Assembly (NCBI GenBank): GCA_017556045.1
Contig: JAFZFF010000010.1
Span: forward strand, 1-50,467
Direction: 5' to 3'
From: Bacteroidaceae bacterium
GTDB lineage: Bacteria > Bacteroidota > Bacteroidia > Bacteroidales > Bacteroidaceae
Length of the DNA: 50,467 nucleotides
Part shown: one piece after another, positions 1-42,229 of the stretch
Layout of the letters: every line of letters starts with the position of its first letter
How positions within the stretch are numbered: position 1 is the stretch's first letter
Notes under the pieces: generated by a model
Databases searched by the model: none
Seen by the model: only the letters and a program-made list of their open reading frames with translations
What the model was told of the DNA's origin: nothing
Translations under genes and position numbers: made by a program

Positions 1-73
1 GCCTCTTGTCGGATTCGAACCAACGACCCCGAGATTACAAATCACGTGCTCTGGCCAACTGAGCTAAAGAGGC
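1..73 (-). tRNA. tRNA-Thr (anticodon UGU), 3' end cut by window edge
   Basis: Read on the minus strand, the segment folds as a tRNA. A 7-bp acceptor stem joins GCCTCTT to AAGAGGC, the D-arm contains AGCTCAGTTGG, and the T-arm contains GGTTCGAATCC. The anticodon loop TTTGTAA gives anticodon TGT, which reads the Thr codon ACA. The discriminator base and any CCA lie outside the window. It sits downstream of hpf on the same strand. Confidence 0.95.
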
Positions 74-164
74 AGGTTTTAAGCAGCCGCTCAACGAGTA
101 GTGCTGAAAACGGCTGCAAATTTAGGCATTTATTTCAAACCTGCAAAAGGTTTTTGCTTTTTTT

Positions 165-464
165 TTACTTTCCACGCAATTTTTCTTTATATTTTTCGAG
201 TTGGATGCGCAAAGCGTCCACACATTCGTCTACACTTTCCTCAAAAGTGTCGCAAATCTTCGATGCGAAGAGGCTCTCATTTTTGACCAAAACTTTGACG
301 TCGGCCTGCTTATTCATAGCCGTCTCAGGCTTCACTACTTTGAGGGTTACCTCCACGGTATCTATTTCGTCGAAGAATTTCTCCAACTTCGCTGTCTTCT
401 TTTCAATAAACGCTTGCAATTGCTCACTTGCATCAAAATGGATGCTCTGGATGTTAGTCTTCAT
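165..464 (-). CDS. hpf: Short-form hibernation promoting factor / ribosome-associated inhibitor (HPF/RaiA family)
   Basis: This 99-residue protein is an HPF/RaiA-type factor that binds the 30S decoding region of idle ribosomes and lowers translation in slow growth. The sequence shows the family's beta-alpha-beta-beta-beta-alpha pattern. It opens with the strand KTNIQSIHFDAS, then a helix rich in Lys and Glu, the strand VEVTLKVVKPE and a second amphipathic helix ending in a basic tail. No long-form dimerisation domain is present, so it is the short form. The start follows an unusually strong Shine-Dalgarno (469-477). The gene lies 17 nt after the xerC stop and is probably co-transcribed with it. 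The tRNA-Thr lies downstream. The family call is firm; the choice between HPF and YfiA naming is not. Confidence 0.93.
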   Translation of the reverse strand: MKTNIQSIHFDASEQLQAFIEKKTAKLEKFFDEIDTVEVTLKVVKPETAMNKQADVKVLVKNESLFASKICDTFEESVDECVDALRIQLEKYKEKLRGK

Positions 465-468
465 ACTT

Positions 469-477
469 ACCTCCTTT
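469..477 (-). promoter_or_regulatory. Strong Shine-Dalgarno of hpf
   Basis: The minus strand reads AAAGGAGGT with 5 nt between GGAGG and the hpf ATG. This is a near-perfect complement to the 16S 3' end at optimal spacing. Bacteroidota ribosomes normally do not use Shine-Dalgarno pairing, and the other starts in this window lack anything comparable. Confidence 0.85.
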
Positions 478-481
478 GTTA

Positions 482-1384
482 TTATTGATTAATACTTGCC
501 CGGGGATGGGCTTGACTGTATACTTTCTTAAGTTCTTCGAATGTAGTATGTGTATAAATCTGCGTCGTGCTCACGCTCTCGTGTCCCATCAGCTCCTTGA
601 CAGCCTCGAGATCTGCATTATTATTGAGCATCGCCGTTGCAAAGGTATGCCGCAACACGTGCGGACTACGTTTCTTGAGCGTCACCACCTGCGAGAGATT
701 CCTGCGCACCACGAGATACACCCATCCGGGATACACACGTACTCCCTTGTCAGTAACAAATAAGGGATGAGGATTAAGAGTTGAGGGACGACCAAACTCT
801 TCGTCTTTCTTCTCAACATACTCCTTCAGATGCTGCACCATCCCATCGCCGACAGGAATGAGGCGCTGTTTATTGCGTTTACCTGTCACCTTTATGGCCT
901 TACGAACAAAGTCCACGTCCTCCTCATTGAGCTCCACAAGCTCAGAGAGACGTATACCAGTCTCATAAAACAATTGAATTATCACTCTCTCGCGTACCCC
1001 CTGCCACGAGTCACCACTAAGCGAATCATCGAGCAGACGATCCATATCAGCCTCACGCACGAACTGAGGCAGCGGCTTTTTCTTTTTCGGACCACGCACA
1101 TTCTGCATAGGCGACACCTTGATATCACCCTGACGCAGCAGATATTTATAGAACGTACGCAGCGCGCTAAGCTTACGGTTCACCGAAGTCGCCTTACAGC
1201 CACCCTCCATGAGCGTCACTGCCCACCCTCTGATAAGGTCGGCATCAGCATTAGTCAAATCAAGTACGTTCTCGGTATTCGCAAGGTATGCCCCGAACTC
1301 CCTCAGGTCGCTCTCATAGCTTTTCACCGTATGGGGCGAGTAGGCTCTTTCGTGAGTCAGATAGTTTAAGAATCCCTCTATCAT
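482..1384 (-). CDS. xerC: Tyrosine recombinase, XerC/XerD type
   Basis: This 300-residue site-specific recombinase most likely resolves chromosome dimers at dif. The N-terminal SAM-like core-binding domain spans about residues 1-90, and the catalytic domain about 108-295. The full active set is visible: Arg145 (GIRLSEL), Lys169, His242 and Arg245 (HVLRH), His268 (GHESVS) and nucleophile Tyr277 (IYTH). I start at the ATG at 1384; a GTG two codons upstream (1390) is possible. Location between rpsU and hpf is the ordinary Bacteroidales arrangement, which favours the housekeeping Xer protein over a phase-variation invertase. Sequence alone does not separate XerC from XerD. Confidence 0.9.
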   Translation of the reverse strand: MIEGFLNYLTHERAYSPHTVKSYESDLREFGAYLANTENVLDLTNADADLIRGWAVTLMEGGCKATSVNRKLSALRTFYKYLLRQGDIKVSPMQNVRGPKKKKPLPQFVREADMDRLLDDSLSGDSWQGVRERVIIQLFYETGIRLSELVELNEEDVDFVRKAIKVTGKRNKQRLIPVGDGMVQHLKEYVEKKDEEFGRPSTLNPHPLFVTDKGVRVYPGWVYLVVRRNLSQVVTLKKRSPHVLRHTFATAMLNNNADLEAVKELMGHESVSTTQIYTHTTFEELKKVYSQAHPRASINQ

Positions 1385-1563
1385 AAGCACACCTTATATA
1401 ATATATATAATAGAAAAGAAAGATATGTTCTCCACCAACGAAGATTCTCCTCTTTTCAAGGGCGAAAATAGCGATTTTTCTTAGAAATGCAAAAACATTT
1501 TGCACATTTTTCGCAGCCCTACCCTATTTTTCGGCACAAAGGCAGAGCCATAGATAAAAAAAC

Positions 1564-1589
1564 AAGGGCAGACCATGTGGTCTGCCCTT
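1564..1589 (-). terminator. Intrinsic terminator after rpsU
   Basis: A perfect GC-rich hairpin (AGGGCAGACCAC pairing with its complement) is followed on the minus strand by TTGTTTTTTTA. It lies 22 nt past the rpsU stop and separates rpsU from xerC transcription. Confidence 0.9.
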
Positions 1590-1610
1590 AGCTTATGAGA
1601 TTCGTGAGAA

Positions 1611-1802
1611 TTACTCTTCGTTCTGACGCAAGCTCTGAACGTATACGGCACGCTCCATCTTCAGACGCTTAACTGCTGAAGGCTTGTTAAACTGCTGACG
1701 ACGACGGAGTTCCTTAACTACGCCTGTCTTCTCGAATTTTCTCTTAAATTTCTTGAGAGCTCTTTCAATGTTTTCGCCCTCTTTTACGGGTACTACGATC
1801 AT
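1611..1802 (-). CDS. rpsU: 30S ribosomal protein bS21
   Basis: This 63-residue basic protein has the bS21 signature: MIVVPVKEGENIERALKKFKRKF at the start and a central basic segment with LRRRQQFNKPS. It binds the 30S platform near the 3' end of 16S rRNA. In Bacteroidota bS21 is reported to help hide the anti-Shine-Dalgarno. The gene has its own promoter (1929-1960) and terminator (1564-1589), so it is monocistronic. Its leader of roughly 120 nt carries a Shine-Dalgarno-like 9-mer (1904-1912) about 100 nt before the start, while the start itself has only A-rich sequence in front. The identification is certain from length and motif. Confidence 0.97.
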   Translation of the reverse strand: MIVVPVKEGENIERALKKFKRKFEKTGVVKELRRRQQFNKPSAVKRLKMERAVYVQSLRQNEE

Positions 1803-1903
1803 GTTGTTTTTGTTTTTATTTTGTTATTACACTTTCAATTTTTATAACTGTGCGCTAAGCACTATGTTTTTAAGGTCTTATGCTATAGTATTTCTTGTAT
1901 TTT

Positions 1904-1912
1904 ACCTCCTTT
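1904..1912 (-). promoter_or_regulatory. Shine-Dalgarno-like 9-mer in the rpsU leader
   Basis: The minus strand reads AAAGGAGGT, identical to the hpf ribosome binding site, but about 100 nt upstream of the rpsU ATG. No ATG follows at normal spacing. It lies between the rpsU promoter and the gene, so it should be transcribed. Its function is unknown; autoregulation through the free anti-Shine-Dalgarno is an inference. Confidence 0.5.
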
Positions 1913-1928
1913 ACACTTTTAGCGGGTG

Positions 1929-1960
1929 CAAAATTAGTGCAATCTGAGCGAAATACCAAA
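1929..1960 (-). promoter_or_regulatory. rpsU promoter
   Basis: On the minus strand, TTTG (1957-1960), a 20-bp spacer and TAATTTTG (1929-1936) match the Bacteroidota primary sigma consensus TTTG-N19-21-TAnnTTTG. The surrounding 38 bp are nearly identical to the prfB promoter. Confidence 0.8.
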
Positions 1961-2083
1961 TTTATTTTAATATTTCTGAAGCACAGTCTATTTTCAGCAC
2001 ACAAAATCGACTAAAATCTGAGCTATCGAAACAAAACGCTACACTTAACTGAGCAAAAGACACTCACACTGAGCACTACTCCA

Positions 2084-2398
2084 TCAGGCTTCGCCCTTAA
2101 AGTCGCTCAAGCGAGGCACATAGGTACCCTTGCCCTGCTCGGGGATACGGATAGGGCCGAAGGTCTGCTCGTAGCGAGTAATATTGTCTTGCAATGCGTG
2201 CATGAGGCGCACGGCATGTTCGGGAGTGAGGATCACGCGTGACTGCACCTGAGCCTTGGGCATACCAGGGAGCATACGAATAAGATCCATGACAAACTCT
2301 GACGATGAGTGTGAGATAACAGCAAAGTTGCAATATACGCCTTGAGCAACATCTTCCTTCAATTCTATCTGAAGTTGGTTTTCGGGTTTCTTTTCCAT
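2084..2398 (-). CDS. DUF3467 family protein
   Basis: This 104-residue cytosolic protein has the DUF3467 pattern. It starts with an acidic, Gln-rich stretch (QLQIELKEDVAQGVYCN), then FAVISHSSSEFVMDLIRMLPGMPKAQVQSR as two separated family segments, then ILTPEHAVRLMHALQDNI. No catalytic motif is visible and no function is established. It lies about 108 nt downstream of ftsZ, behind that gene's putative terminator. I see no consensus promoter in the gap, so it may depend on read-through from ftsZ. There is no signal peptide or membrane segment. Confidence 0.85.
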   Translation of the reverse strand: MEKKPENQLQIELKEDVAQGVYCNFAVISHSSSEFVMDLIRMLPGMPKAQVQSRVILTPEHAVRLMHALQDNITRYEQTFGPIRIPEQGKGTYVPRLSDFKGEA

Positions 2399-2444
2399 TA
2401 CAGTATATATTGTTAATTATTTAGACTACTTATTTTATAATATA

Positions 2445-2483
2445 TATGAGCTCCCTGCCGGATAGCCAACAAAAGAGCTCATA
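2445..2483 (-). terminator. Putative terminator after ftsZ
   Basis: Nine-bp arms (TATGAGCTC and GAGCTCATA) enclose a 21-nt loop, followed on the minus strand by an AT-rich but not pure-T tail. It lies 24 nt past the ftsZ stop. The long loop makes it weaker than the others here. Confidence 0.5.
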
Positions 2484-2506
2484 AGATCTATGGTGTGCTG
2501 ATAAGA

Positions 2507-3775
2507 TCACTTACGCTTAGAAGCCAGTTCTACCAAATCATGCTTGGCACGGCGGTAGGTAGGCATGGCATCGAGGGCATCGATGAGATCATCGTTAAAG
2601 AGATCACTATCCTCCATCACGAAGGCATGGATGGTACGCTTAGCCACAATATCGGGACCTCCGTAGTACTTGGTAATCATCTCTTTGTCGCGAGCCTCCT
2701 GCTGCCTGCGAGCCTCTATCTCCTCGGGAGTCTCGAGACGCTCCTGCTTAGGAGCGTGGTTAACCTCGATGGTAGTATTGCTCATGCCAGGAATATTGCT
2801 TACGCCGAAACCTGTAGCAAGGATGGTAATCTTAACCTCCTCATCGAGCGACTCATCGGTAGCCATACCCCAGATAACCTCGATATCTTTACTGAGAAAC
2901 TTATCAGTAAAGCGACTAATCTCTTCCATCTCCTCGACCTTGAGCGGATGCTTGGGGCTATCGTAGATATTGAAGAGTATCTTCTTAGAGTTGTAGATAT
3001 CATTATCATTGAGCAGCGGAGAGTGCAGAGCATTCTCGATAGCCTCGGCAAGGCGCTTCTCGCCACTACCCAAGCCATAACTCATGATAGCCACACCGCC
3101 ATCGCGCAACACCTTGCTCACATCTCGGAAGTCTAAGTTGATAGTACCCTCAGTGGTGATAATCTCCGAGATACTCTTCACCGCTATGGTAAGCGTGTCG
3201 TCCACACGATGGAAGGCTTCGCTGACGTTGCGATTCTGGAAGATATCAAAGATGCGCTCATTATTAATCACGAGCAACGCATCGACATGCTTAGAGATAG
3301 CATCAACACCCTTGAGTGCCTGCACGATCTTGGGACGCAGCTCAAACTTGAAGGGGATAGTCACCACACCTACGGTGAGCACGCCCGACTCCTTGGCCAC
3401 ACGAGCCACGACAGGCGCCGCACCTGTACCCGTACCACCACCCATACCAGCGGTGATAAAGACCATCTCGGTGCCATCCTGAAACTGCTTACGTATATCC
3501 TCGATGTTCTCCTCAGCAGCCTGACGAGCCACTTCGGGGTCATTACCAGCACCGAGTCCTTTGGTAGTCTCACGACCAATCTGCAACTTCACGGGAATCT
3601 GCGACTTGGCGAGAGCCTGACTATCAGTATTACACAAGACGAATGACACATCCTGAATGCCAGTGCGGTACATGTTTTTCACGGCATTGCCGCCGCCACC
3701 GCCCACACCGATGACCTTGATGATCTTACGCTCTTCGGTAGGCAAGTCTAATGGCAAAATATCATTATCACTCAT
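2507..3775 (-). CDS. ftsZ: Cell division GTPase FtsZ
   Basis: This 422-residue tubulin-like GTPase assembles the division ring. The glycine-rich phosphate loop is at 25-29 (GVGGGGGNAV) and the tubulin signature GMGGGTGTGAAP is near 110-121. NLDFRDV and the GTPase-activating T7 region follow. After the globular core (to about residue 325) there is a linker containing APKQERLETPEEIEARRQ, then a conserved-looking tail (DDLIDALDAMPTYRR...) that would bind FtsA. It starts 12 nt after the ftsA stop, so ftsA-ftsZ are one transcript. Family membership is certain. Confidence 0.98.
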   Translation of the reverse strand: MSDNDILPLDLPTEERKIIKVIGVGGGGGNAVKNMYRTGIQDVSFVLCNTDSQALAKSQIPVKLQIGRETTKGLGAGNDPEVARQAAEENIEDIRKQFQDGTEMVFITAGMGGGTGTGAAPVVARVAKESGVLTVGVVTIPFKFELRPKIVQALKGVDAISKHVDALLVINNERIFDIFQNRNVSEAFHRVDDTLTIAVKSISEIITTEGTINLDFRDVSKVLRDGGVAIMSYGLGSGEKRLAEAIENALHSPLLNDNDIYNSKKILFNIYDSPKHPLKVEEMEEISRFTDKFLSKDIEVIWGMATDESLDEEVKITILATGFGVSNIPGMSNTTIEVNHAPKQERLETPEEIEARRQQEARDKEMITKYYGGPDIVAKRTIHAFVMEDSDLFNDDLIDALDAMPTYRRAKHDLVELASKRK

Positions 3776-3787
3776 ATCGTATCCTGT

Positions 3788-5212
3788 TTAGTTTTTGTTA
3801 TCTTCATTTTCATCATCATTCAATAACTCGTTGGCGAGCTTCTCTACGCTGACGCCTACCGTCTTGATTTTCTTCACAAATCCCGAGAAGAATCCACTGG
3901 TCTTAGCCTGTCGCTCAGCCTTACGTGCCTCAGCCTCCTTGATCTTCTGCTGACGCTTAGCCTCGAGCTCCTCATCACGCTTAGCCTGTGCGCTCTCACC
4001 ATCATCTGTAAAGAGATTGCCAGTCACTAGTCGAGGCTCATCTTGGGGGAGTATCTCCATCTGCAAGCCATCAGAACAGCAACCCTCGACACCCCCCATC
4101 AGGAGACCAGCCAATACGCCCTGCGTGCCATCAGTAGGACGACCCTGAGCAGCCCACTCCACCTTGGTTACTGTATTATATGCCAGGCGCACCTTTGACA
4201 TCAACGGCTTTTGCGCAATAGCCTTCTCGAAACCCTTGAGGTTGATACCACCACCACAGCACACCACACCTGCGTGGAGCTGCTTGTCGGTGTAGCCCGA
4301 AGCCTCTATCTGGTGGCATACGTTGAGGATAATCTCCTCAAAGCGTGCCTCGATGACGTCATACACGCTGCGCAACTCGATGGTACGGCCATCGTCGAGC
4401 GTCACAGTCTCGTCACCCGAGGTCGGGGGTACCAGTCCATACTCACACTTGATGCGCTCAGCCTCCTGTTCATCGAGCTGCAACGAGCAGAGGTCGCGTG
4501 TAATGCTCTGTCCACCCATGGGAATCACCGTAAGGAAACGCAAGTTACCACCCTTGTATACCGAGAGTGTAGTAGTGTCGGCACCGAAATCCACGAGCAC
4601 ACAGCCCTGGCGACGCTCATTCTCTGTGAGCAACACGTTGGCTGCCACGAGGGGCGGTATAGAGGTATCAGCAATATTGATCTTGGCAATCTCAAAGCTC
4701 TTAGCCGTATTGTGCATCACCGATGTGCGGGCAAGGATATTCAGATAGTTGCCCTCCACCTGAGTACAGTTGACACCCACGGGGTCGTTGATCAGATTAT
4801 TGCCGATCTTATACTCTTGTGATATCATCATCAGCATATCATGGCCCGGATACTGCTTTGCCGCATTCTCCTCCTCCATCTCCGTCACGACAGCTGCCGA
4901 CACGCGTGTCTCCTCCTCGAAGGTGCGCACGACGCTATTCTGCTCTGAGTGCAGAGTATATCCGCCCACACCCACATACACCTGATCTATCGTGATATTG
5001 TTCAACTCGGGCTCCAGACAGTTGATGAGGTTCGACAGGCACTGCGCCGTCTGGTCGATGTTGTACACCACACCACGACGCACGAATCCTGAGGCAGGCT
5101 CACTTGCATAGGCGAGCACCTGCAGACCACCGTCGGCACTCTTGCGTCCCACGGCACCCGCTATCTTCGACGAGCCAAGTTCGATGGCTACGATTAAGTC
5201 ATTTGTTACCAT
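3788..5212 (-). CDS. ftsA: Cell division protein FtsA
   Basis: This 474-residue actin-like ATPase tethers FtsZ to the inner membrane. The phosphate-1 motif near the N-terminus is IAIELGSSKIAGAVG, the SHS2/1C region follows, and VLVDFGADTTTLSVYKGG and GVVCCGGGINLKG are the phosphate-2 and adenosine segments. The C-terminus carries a charged coiled stretch (about 410-440, rich in Lys/Glu/Ala) and an amphipathic segment FFSGFVKKIKTVGVSVEKLA suited to membrane binding. It leads an ftsA-ftsZ pair, whereas murC-ftsQ, normally just upstream, are 25 kb away. A half-site CAAAGATA lies at 5272-5279, without a well-placed -33. Confidence 0.97.
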   Translation of the reverse strand: MVTNDLIVAIELGSSKIAGAVGRKSADGGLQVLAYASEPASGFVRRGVVYNIDQTAQCLSNLINCLEPELNNITIDQVYVGVGGYTLHSEQNSVVRTFEEETRVSAAVVTEMEEENAAKQYPGHDMLMMISQEYKIGNNLINDPVGVNCTQVEGNYLNILARTSVMHNTAKSFEIAKINIADTSIPPLVAANVLLTENERRQGCVLVDFGADTTTLSVYKGGNLRFLTVIPMGGQSITRDLCSLQLDEQEAERIKCEYGLVPPTSGDETVTLDDGRTIELRSVYDVIEARFEEIILNVCHQIEASGYTDKQLHAGVVCCGGGINLKGFEKAIAQKPLMSKVRLAYNTVTKVEWAAQGRPTDGTQGVLAGLLMGGVEGCCSDGLQMEILPQDEPRLVTGNLFTDDGESAQAKRDEELEAKRQQKIKEAEARKAERQAKTSGFFSGFVKKIKTVGVSVEKLANELLNDDENEDNKN

Positions 5213-39904: not shown

Positions 39905-42121
39905 TTAGAATGTCACCTTGAGGTATCTGCATCCATGCAAGGGGATATTACATTTGAGTTCCTCATCTGCGAGGTTCTTCTGACGCCACACATCGCGGAT
40001 AACCTTAGCGGGCTTATCTGAGGGGATGAGTGCCTTGAGGTCTACCTCATGGTCTACGTCACCTACATTGAAGATACCTACTGCAATACTGCCATCTGCC
40101 AAGGGGCGGCTCCAAATCTCGATGTCGCCATCCTTCTTGGTGAGATCAGCCTGCTTACCGAGCATATCCTGGTTGATAGCATTTACCTCATTGTTACAGA
40201 GGAGCTTCACAGTAAAGTCATCCATGTGCTCGATGTCGCAACCGATAAGCATGTTTGATGCGAGGAGTGTCCACAATGTGATGTGAGTGTACTGCTCGTC
40301 GGGTGTCAAGCGCGTCTCGCGGAGGTCGCCGCGTCCCCAGCCGACCTTACCTACTACGAGCATATCGGGGTCGTTCCAGTGACCAACTGAAGAGTACTTT
40401 GACAAGCCCTCTTGCAAGCGGAAGCCTACGCGGTATACTGTAGCCCAGTCGTCCTCGATATCAGGAGCTGTACGCCAGCTATCACCATCACAGTAGAGAC
40501 CCCAGAGGTATACCTGAGTACCTCCCAAGGGACCAAGGCTGTAGAAGATATCGCGGGGCTGCTGACGTATATATTGCTGCATGAGCAAGTAGGGACGGAT
40601 ACAGCTTGCAAAGCCCCAGTCGTTAGTCTCACGGCGTACGTTCTCGTAGCTACACCAGTCATACTTGAGGTAGTCAACACCCCACTCATTGTACTTCTCA
40701 GCATCCTCTTTCTCATAGCCGAGACTACCGAGATAGCCTCCACAGGTGGTAGCACCAGGACCGCTATAGATACCAAACTTCAAGCCACGATCGTGGAGCC
40801 AGTCGATGAGTCCCTTCATTGAGGGGAACTTCTCGTTAGCTTCGATGGTGCCATCGGGGTTACGCTCTGCAGCTTCCCAACCATCATCGATATTGATATA
40901 GCAATAGCCATGGTCTGCCAAGCCCTTATCGATGAGCGCCTGAGCCGAAGCAATTACCTTCTCCTGAGATACGCTCAGTCCCCAGCAGTTCCATGAGTTC
41001 CATCCCATGGGAGGAGTCTGACCAATCTTGTCTGCACCCACCTTGATAGTGAAGATCTGAGTATCTTTGCCCTTGGCATTCTCTGCAGTCACCGTGAAGG
41101 TATAGTCACCATCCTTGTCGAGCTTACCAGTCATCACACCCTCTTCAGTCACCTGTACACCCTCGGGGAGGTTGCTGCAGGTAAGCTTCATGGGACGTTC
41201 ACCTGTTACAGCAAAGCGATAGATGATGGGTGAGCCGGGGCGAACGCCAAATACGGGAGCATTATTGAAGCGCGGTGTCACGGGATCATCGGGAGTGAGC
41301 ACATACTTGAGCTGCTTCTCCTCCTTGATCACCTTACCTGTCTTAGCGTCGGTATAGGTGACTGTGAGCTTCTGCATCTTGTCCATGGTGTAGGGTACGG
41401 TCACCATTGTGGGCTTGCCGCGCTTTACGGTAATCTTCTTATTGATGGTCTTCACGACAGCGCCAGTTTCGCGGTCAGTCATCACCACCTCGAGCTTACC
41501 ATTAGTTGATGTAGCGTAGTCATTGATAACCTCGATGGTGTAGTACTGCTTGCCCTCGTTATAGTCGGTGAGGCGCATAGAGATACCCTCGGCCGCCTTG
41601 GGCGCATAGATATTCAAGGGGTTGTAGAACAAACCACCCGAACCACCACGATTGTATACGCGTACAGCTACCACGTTCTCCTTGTCCCAATGAATATCCT
41701 TGGCATCTGCCACATAGTAGCGATCTACATTTACTGCACCAACAAAACCATTCTTGCTTGTTGGCAAAAAACCAGTACCACCGATAAGCTTGCCATTGAG
41801 GTAACACTCGTCCACGTCGTCAGCACGGGGGATATTGATGATAACAGCATTCTGTTGGTCAGCATTCTGAATCAAGCTCTTGGGAATGTTTATGCGGAAG
41901 CGATACCACGCATAGTCGTTGTTGTGAGCAGGGAAGCCCTGTTTGTCCCATTGAGATTTCACATCGATACTGCTCCAAGAAGAGTCATCCACGTCGAGGT
42001 TAGCCCACTCCATGTTGTCCCCCTGCTTGAAAAGCGCCTTGTCTACGCTGAGCGTCTGTGTCTGCGCATTAGCCTGAAGCCCAGCCAGGGCCATCAGCGC
42101 TACGATAAATAGCTTTTTCAT
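39905..42121 (-). CDS. GH27 alpha-galactosidase family protein, copy B
   Basis: This 738-residue exported enzyme (signal MKKLFIVALMALAGLQANAQ) has the same order as copy A: galactose-binding-like sandwich, Ig-like stretch with He_PIG, GH27 barrel (nucleophile Asp in YLKYDWCSY; WNDPDMLVVGKVGWGRG) and C-terminal beta domain. It diverges from A mostly in the first 300 residues, so the catalytic part is conserved and the binding part has drifted. I start at the ATG at 42121 because the longer frame adds 23 residues before a clear signal peptide. It lies 108 nt after the GH2 stop with no consensus promoter between, so GH2 and copy B are probably one transcript. Leader similarity to copy A shows that the duplication included upstream DNA. 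Confidence 0.93.
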   Translation of the reverse strand: MKKLFIVALMALAGLQANAQTQTLSVDKALFKQGDNMEWANLDVDDSSWSSIDVKSQWDKQGFPAHNNDYAWYRFRINIPKSLIQNADQQNAVIINIPRADDVDECYLNGKLIGGTGFLPTSKNGFVGAVNVDRYYVADAKDIHWDKENVVAVRVYNRGGSGGLFYNPLNIYAPKAAEGISMRLTDYNEGKQYYTIEVINDYATSTNGKLEVVMTDRETGAVVKTINKKITVKRGKPTMVTVPYTMDKMQKLTVTYTDAKTGKVIKEEKQLKYVLTPDDPVTPRFNNAPVFGVRPGSPIIYRFAVTGERPMKLTCSNLPEGVQVTEEGVMTGKLDKDGDYTFTVTAENAKGKDTQIFTIKVGADKIGQTPPMGWNSWNCWGLSVSQEKVIASAQALIDKGLADHGYCYINIDDGWEAAERNPDGTIEANEKFPSMKGLIDWLHDRGLKFGIYSGPGATTCGGYLGSLGYEKEDAEKYNEWGVDYLKYDWCSYENVRRETNDWGFASCIRPYLLMQQYIRQQPRDIFYSLGPLGGTQVYLWGLYCDGDSWRTAPDIEDDWATVYRVGFRLQEGLSKYSSVGHWNDPDMLVVGKVGWGRGDLRETRLTPDEQYTHITLWTLLASNMLIGCDIEHMDDFTVKLLCNNEVNAINQDMLGKQADLTKKDGDIEIWSRPLADGSIAVGIFNVGDVDHEVDLKALIPSDKPAKVIRDVWRQKNLADEELKCNIPLHGCRYLKVTF

Positions 42122-42229
42122 TAGGTATTCTATGAGGTTCTTTCGGTTTATTTCGCACCACTGAGCAGCCCGAACCTCCTTTGTAGCCACTACCGATGCT
42201 CCATTATTTCCTATTAGTTATACACGTAA

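Follow-up and report, generated by a model that had tools for sequence, protein, structure and literature searches.

In Flavobacterium johnsoniae, the ribosomal proteins bS21, bS18 and bS6 hold the tail of the 16S rRNA, and ribosomes without bS21 regain recognition of the Shine-Dalgarno (SD) sequence (PMC9976891). A strain with the bS21 mutation Y54A has also been published. As described in that study, loss of bS21 raises the output of an AGGAGGU reporter and of the bS21 gene rpsU itself. The reporter responded although the authors hold an extended SD to be necessary for autoregulation and for stimulation by bS21-depleted ribosomes (McNutt 2023, PMC9976891), and by the account given there no Bacteroidales meet the authors' criteria for a strong rpsU SD. 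A conserved SD has been described in Bacteroidales at rpsR, the gene of bS18 (Jha 2021 as described in PMC9976891, PMC8710568), and in wild-type Prevotella bryantii an added SD was reported to leave the yield of a reporter not appreciably changed (PMC3155529). In cry3A of Bacillus thuringiensis, binding of the 30S subunit to the so-called STAB-SD protects the mRNA, and the site is described as directing no translation there (PMC4113751).

We analyzed a window of 50,467 nucleotides, by which we mean the whole stretch of DNA under study, in which one SD lies at hpf, the gene of a hibernation promoting factor, and another lies far upstream of rpsU. A literature search at the level of titles and abstract openings returned no SD at hpf and no SD in an rpsU leader, a remark in a full text or supplement being possible, and the word hpf is absent from the main text of PMC9976891 and PMC8710568. 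What the present locus shares with rpsU autoregulation in F. johnsoniae is a strong SD despite a hidden anti-SD in the phylum, together with the involvement of the bS21 gene; in F. johnsoniae, however, the extended SD is at the rpsU start, whereas here an SD stands before hpf and, for part of one genus, another lies far upstream of rpsU. The hpf site shares with that of rpsR the property of a conserved SD at a gene tied to the state of the ribosome, although bS18 belongs to the anti-SD pocket while HPF is a hibernation factor and not a pocket protein. The site upstream of rpsU would resemble the cry3A STAB-SD in lying, without a start codon at usable spacing, near the 5' end (a presumed one in the window) of a leader that measures about 120-130 nt, but the two come from different phyla and stabilization of the rpsU mRNA is putative here. 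In the phylum of Bacillus the anti-SD is not known to be hidden. As a gene that is non-ribosomal and physiologically meaningful, hpf would be an addition to the short list of SD genes in an anti-SD-hiding phylum, and its SD is found in the very order where the published scan saw no strong rpsU SD.

Two SD 9-mers around rpsU, xer and hpf

The minus strand of the window carries, in this order, rpsU, xer and hpf, with a tRNA following at the contig edge. rpsU (1611..1802) encodes a bS21 of 63 aa (Pfam Ribosomal_S21; alignments to 7jil and 9i5v chains) with a tyrosine at residue 54, and in the sequence alignment this Tyr54 aligns with 7jil. The ATG-started frame of xer (482..1384) encodes a tyrosine recombinase (Pfam Phage_integrase), an alternative GTG frame beginning at 1390, and hpf (165..464) encodes a short hibernation promoting factor of 99 aa (Pfam Ribosomal_S30AE, E=3.2e-22). 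The tRNA downstream of hpf (1..73, also on the minus strand) is cut by the contig end; it was matched by Rfam (tRNA, 57.7 bits) as the only Rfam match in window positions 1-4000, its anticodon was read by eye as TGT (Thr), and ARAGORN reported no tRNA at the contig edge where Rfam matches one.

The original prediction placed one perfect SD 9-mer directly before hpf and a second in the rpsU leader, and both are real: AAAGGAGGT occurs on the minus strand at 469-477 and at 1904-1912. At hpf the 9-mer is followed by AAGT and then by the ATG at 464, so that it stands 4 nt from the start codon, in noncoding sequence that follows the xer stop codon; because xer ends ahead of the SD, the site is not forced by coding sequence. 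In the rpsU leader (1803..1926, minus strand, with a probable transcription start near 1922-1926), 101 nt separate the SD from the rpsU ATG. The window holds three copies of AAAGGAGGT against 0.28 expected in shuffles, and 0 of 100 shuffles reached three. It had also been claimed that no other gene in the window has such a 9-mer, which holds for start-proximal copies of the 9-mer; the third copy lies at 42174-42182 on the minus strand. This copy is intergenic and is found 52 nt upstream of a plausible ATG at 42121 that opens a signal-peptide-like frame. At that distance it is not at an SD position, and it probably arose by chance. Neither the hpf SD nor the rpsU-leader SD resembles chance.

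The -7 consensus of Bacteroides promoters is TAnnTTTG. On the basis of the sequence and this consensus, we assigned to the rpsU promoter a putative -7 box TAATTTTG (1929..1936) and a putative -33 element TTTG (1957-1960), and we placed another putative -7 box, TATTTTCG, upstream of xer (1463..1470), all on the minus strand. An intrinsic terminator with a 12-bp stem and a T run is predicted between rpsU and xer (1563..1590, minus strand). Positions 1-2500 contain two terminator-like sites, equal to the shuffle mean of 2.0, the other site having 6 pairs, and similar hairpins are found 3' of rpsU in relatives. Given the predicted terminator between them, rpsU and xer-hpf are probably on different mRNAs, a separation that is predicted in the same sense as the promoters and the terminator are, and xer would be the first gene of an xer-hpf unit.

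Conservation and operon setting of the hpf site

SDs were scored by their pairing energy with the 16S tail, and the threshold of -8 kcal/mol was our own choice. The anti-SD query was CACCUCCUUUCU for the 80 titled loci, the first order set and the rpsR counts, and ACACCUCCUUUCU for the family set, the class set, the G201 sample, the genus hpf counts and the A-position counts. The standard 16S tail, ACACCTCCTTTCT, was read in three relatives, 3 of 12 genomes having given a 16S 3' end in that search, and the 16S 3' end of G000 was not found. The first loci examined were 29 from other genomes, found in a search that spanned 198 genomes of the order. The order set comprised 60 hand-picked places, one per family, and together with the earlier loci it covered 78 of 120 families, of which hpf was usable in 77, xer in 70 and rpsU in 69; gene starts for the xer ATG and the G201 sample were crude longest frames.

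A test of conservation had been suggested along with the original prediction, and the hpf site came through it, being kept in most families of the order. When each GTDB family was represented by one genome, the hpf SD paired at -8 kcal/mol or better in 69 of 77 families, against 4 in a mock window and a shuffle mean of 7.4 (largest 12), and at -12 or better in 41 of 77 versus 0 in the mock window and a shuffle mean of 0.7. At the xer start, 7 of 70 families reached -8 (mock 2, shuffles 3.5) and 0 reached -12, and at the rpsU start the numbers were 20 of 69 (mock 2, shuffles 1.2) and 2, respectively. The distance from GGAG to the ATG of hpf was 5-9 nt in all 67 readable family cases. Family counts of this size together with such fixed spacing mark the site as a ribosome-binding element under selection, and it is well supported, as far as sequence comparison reaches, that the hpf SD is old and has been under selection across most of the order.

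The 80 titled records were those closest to the window's Hpf and hence close kin, with Bacteroides, Phocaeicola, Mediterranea, Prevotella and Parabacteroides among them. Here a gene was counted only if its match began close to the query start with an ATG, and its start was set at whichever in-frame ATG lay closest to the aligned start. The hpf SD was present at -8 or better in 76 of the 80 loci and missing in 4, Paraprevotella clara included. No SD was found in these loci at rpsU (0/77), tuf (0/61), rplK (0/56), rplA (0/55), rplL (0/53), rpoB (0/53) or gltX (0/27), few were found at kdtA (3/29) and xer (6/76), and nusG (7/55) and rplJ (16/55) sometimes had one as well. Of the 19 members of the window's genus that were searched, 14 had an hpf match, and every one of these carried the hpf SD, at -11.6 to -13.6 and with drifting flanks; the window's own site paired at -13.5, a value that is not on the McNutt scale because their energies come from another program. 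All 27 parsed genomes, 21 from the window's own family, had the rpsR SD (30 genomes in the set, 29 matched).

The SDs might also be relics or chance purine runs that are functionless at present, a reading that could draw on the ease with which A-rich intergenic DNA yields runs resembling an SD (a shuffle mean of 7.4 in 77) and on the third window copy, which sits at no SD position. We disfavor it and consider it highly improbable, since the 69 of 77 families stand against a shuffle maximum of 12, the spacing is held at 5-9 nt, and in the rpsU leader an invariant 8-mer precedes a fast-changing stretch.

The position of hpf behind a recombinase gene raises the possibility that its SD is an ordinary operon-internal initiation aid for the second gene, through which reinitiating or coupled ribosomes translate hpf well and which carries no bS21 signal. 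In a 400-kb sample of G201, SDs at -8 or better occurred in 13 of 127 genes lying within 40 nt of a co-directional gene compared with 4 of the 146 remaining genes (6 in each mock window, with crude gene starts), and the strongest matches include, by eye, nuoJ, nuoK, rplE, rplF and PII-gene frames; because these SDs lean to inner operon genes, an hpf behind xer fits the pattern. However, only about 10% of the operon-internal genes in this sample carry an SD, versus hpf in 69 of 77 families, and six class loci from two families keep the hpf SD, at -8.4 to -12.2, with no xer detected upstream. In these six loci the nearest upstream frame of at least 60 codons, on either strand, ends 120-529 nt away. 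The hpf SD was absent in the other 5 of the 11 xer-less class loci, and it was also absent in the order loci L028 and L253. With six of 11 xer-less class loci bearing it, the hpf SD can therefore persist outside an operon, though it does not always do so, and we regard the operon-internal explanation as unlikely.

Beyond the order, the hpf SD was found in 24 of 64 class loci, a sample drawn from the better-scoring matches among 178 matching genomes outside the order and not at random. In the family sample, genera g174 and g152 had no hpf SD in any of the 8 loci read, and their genomes retain the rpsR SD (7/7 parsed). Since these genera lack the SD at hpf and retain that at rpsR, hpf can do without one. 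The A-rich positions of the hpf start are kept (A at a frequency of 0.59 at -3 and 0.81 at -13), so complete, bS21-replete ribosomes may also initiate there. An altered anti-SD was rejected as the cause of the loss of the hpf SD: the 16S 3' end was sought in 30 genomes, six of them SD-bearing members of the window's genus, and was found in 5 with no match in 25, and CCTCC was intact in all 5 recovered ends. Four of these five genomes have no hpf SD in the locus read, and the fifth (G003) belongs to the same genus as one lacking it. Four loci had suggested reciprocity, that is, an rpsU SD where hpf is without one, and this was likewise rejected (Fisher 0.41 in the order and 0.44 in the class). 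Among the 188 order loci with both genes, both SDs were present in 17, the hpf SD only in 153, the rpsU SD only in 3 and neither in 15; the corresponding counts for 40 class loci with both genes were 4, 9, 5 and 22.

The rpsU leader site

The rpsU start of the window has no SD and does not pair below -13 kcal/mol, a value that 2 of 69 families reach on an energy scale that differs from McNutt's. At the rpsU start of several loci from other Bacteroidales families (L204, L211, L215, L226 etc.) there is an imperfect purine run, for example AGAAAGAGAG, and these runs pair at about -9 to -13 kcal/mol.

The conservation check gave a divided answer for the leader site, which is kept within part of one genus and is not order-wide. 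AAAGGAGG was found in 10 of 17 genus members with rpsU, ending 102-109 nt upstream of the ATG, and was absent in seven; it is invariant in all ten, including L350 with its differing flanks. The exact pattern of the leader 5' block matched 1 of 295 order genomes, only the window's own. The distribution points to a leader SD that is young and confined to part of one genus. Among the leader columns, the block from -140 to -100 with the putative -7 box and the SD shows 94% identity, and 60% of its columns are invariant; the share of invariant columns is 7% from -100 to -40 and 33% in the last 40 nt before the rpsU ATG. The SD begins 13-14 nt after a CC behind the putative -7 box, near the presumed 5' end of the rpsU mRNA. 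Inspection of the ten leaders by eye found no AUG, GUG or UUG at a usable SD spacing, and a leader ORF was rejected on this ground.

Instead of an mRNA-stability element, the leader SD could be a decoy or standby site that directly controls rpsU translation. A 30S subunit bound close to the 5' end might either load or block the start some 100 nt further on, and the distance between the SD and the ATG is held at 102-109 nt; against this, no supported conserved RNA fold brings the leader SD to the rpsU ATG. Two leader structures, a helix around the SD and a hairpin in mid-leader, show pairing in about 80% of cells, covariation in these hairpins was not above shuffles, and column shuffles reached the leader consensus energy in 4 and 3 of 100. 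Direct control of translation from the leader is thus a possible explanation that we lean against.

The original prediction drew part of its appeal from rpsU and hpf being neighbors. A terminator-like hairpin separates rpsU from xer-hpf in the window, and in none of the 8 leader-SD relatives examined (of nine) does xer-hpf follow rpsU within about 3 kb, which weakens the argument. The proposed tie between the hpf and leader SDs is loosened in a similar way: both sites exist, but their histories differ, one being order-wide and the other limited to part of one genus. In three close relatives with the leader SD (G300, G512 and G516), rpsU and hpf lie 7-10 kb apart on the same contig, while the rpsU-xer distance in the window is about 226 nt, and the rpsU-hpf interval may be a hot spot of insertion or deletion. 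In two other Bacteroidales loci, L025 and L027, a GGAGG site is located about 165-196 nt upstream of rpsU; in L027 it is followed by ATGGATTCTTGA, a possible three-codon leader ORF.

A candidate role for anti-SD-free ribosomes

Our best explanation, for and against which we judge the case to be evenly balanced, is that hpf carries a true SD in an order whose other genes are mostly without one, that this SD is read by 30S subunits with a free anti-SD, and that rpsU is subject to the same control through the leader SD. In such a model bS21, bS18 and bS6 would hide the 16S anti-SD, and 30S subunits in which it is free would translate hpf best, as they would rpsR. Incomplete or stripped ribosomes would then raise both a missing platform protein, bS18, and the ribosome-parking factor HPF. 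The leader SD, which has no start codon, would capture these anti-SD-free 30S subunits as well, and they may stabilize or load the rpsU mRNA in the manner of a STAB-SD or a standby site; in part of the genus of the window, bS21 would then autoregulate its synthesis although rpsU has no SD at its start. Beside the observed sequences, spacing and conservation, we infer the dependence on a free anti-SD, the stabilization of the mRNA and the physiological signal, and the control of hpf by bS21 that the original prediction proposed would hold by analogy with Flavobacterium.

More tentatively, and with the doubts prevailing, we suggest that Bacteroidales have a small SD regulon that comprises at least rpsR and hpf and, for part of one genus, also rpsU by way of a displaced SD in the leader, and that ribosomes with an incomplete platform and a free anti-SD read it, which would make it a sensor of ribosome integrity. 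If this is true, faulty ribosomes would themselves make the hibernation factor and the proteins for platform repair. One small gene and one 9-mer make the role of bS21-lacking ribosomes directly testable in gut Bacteroides.

The perfect 9-mer also precedes other start codons. Across the whole assembly, AAAGGAGGT-N3-6-ATG occurs 5 times versus 2 for a reversed-pattern control, and two of the four non-hpf occurrences, as read, open frames of 11 and 23 codons. In ten genomes the perfect 9-mer with an ATG was found 56 times versus 28 for the reversed control, and four of the 30 occurrences read were hpf. In the loci L280 and L286, a perfect AAAGGAGGT stands ahead of tiny frames, one of 33 codons for a small hydrophobic protein and one of 26 codons that, by eye, resembles KdpF.
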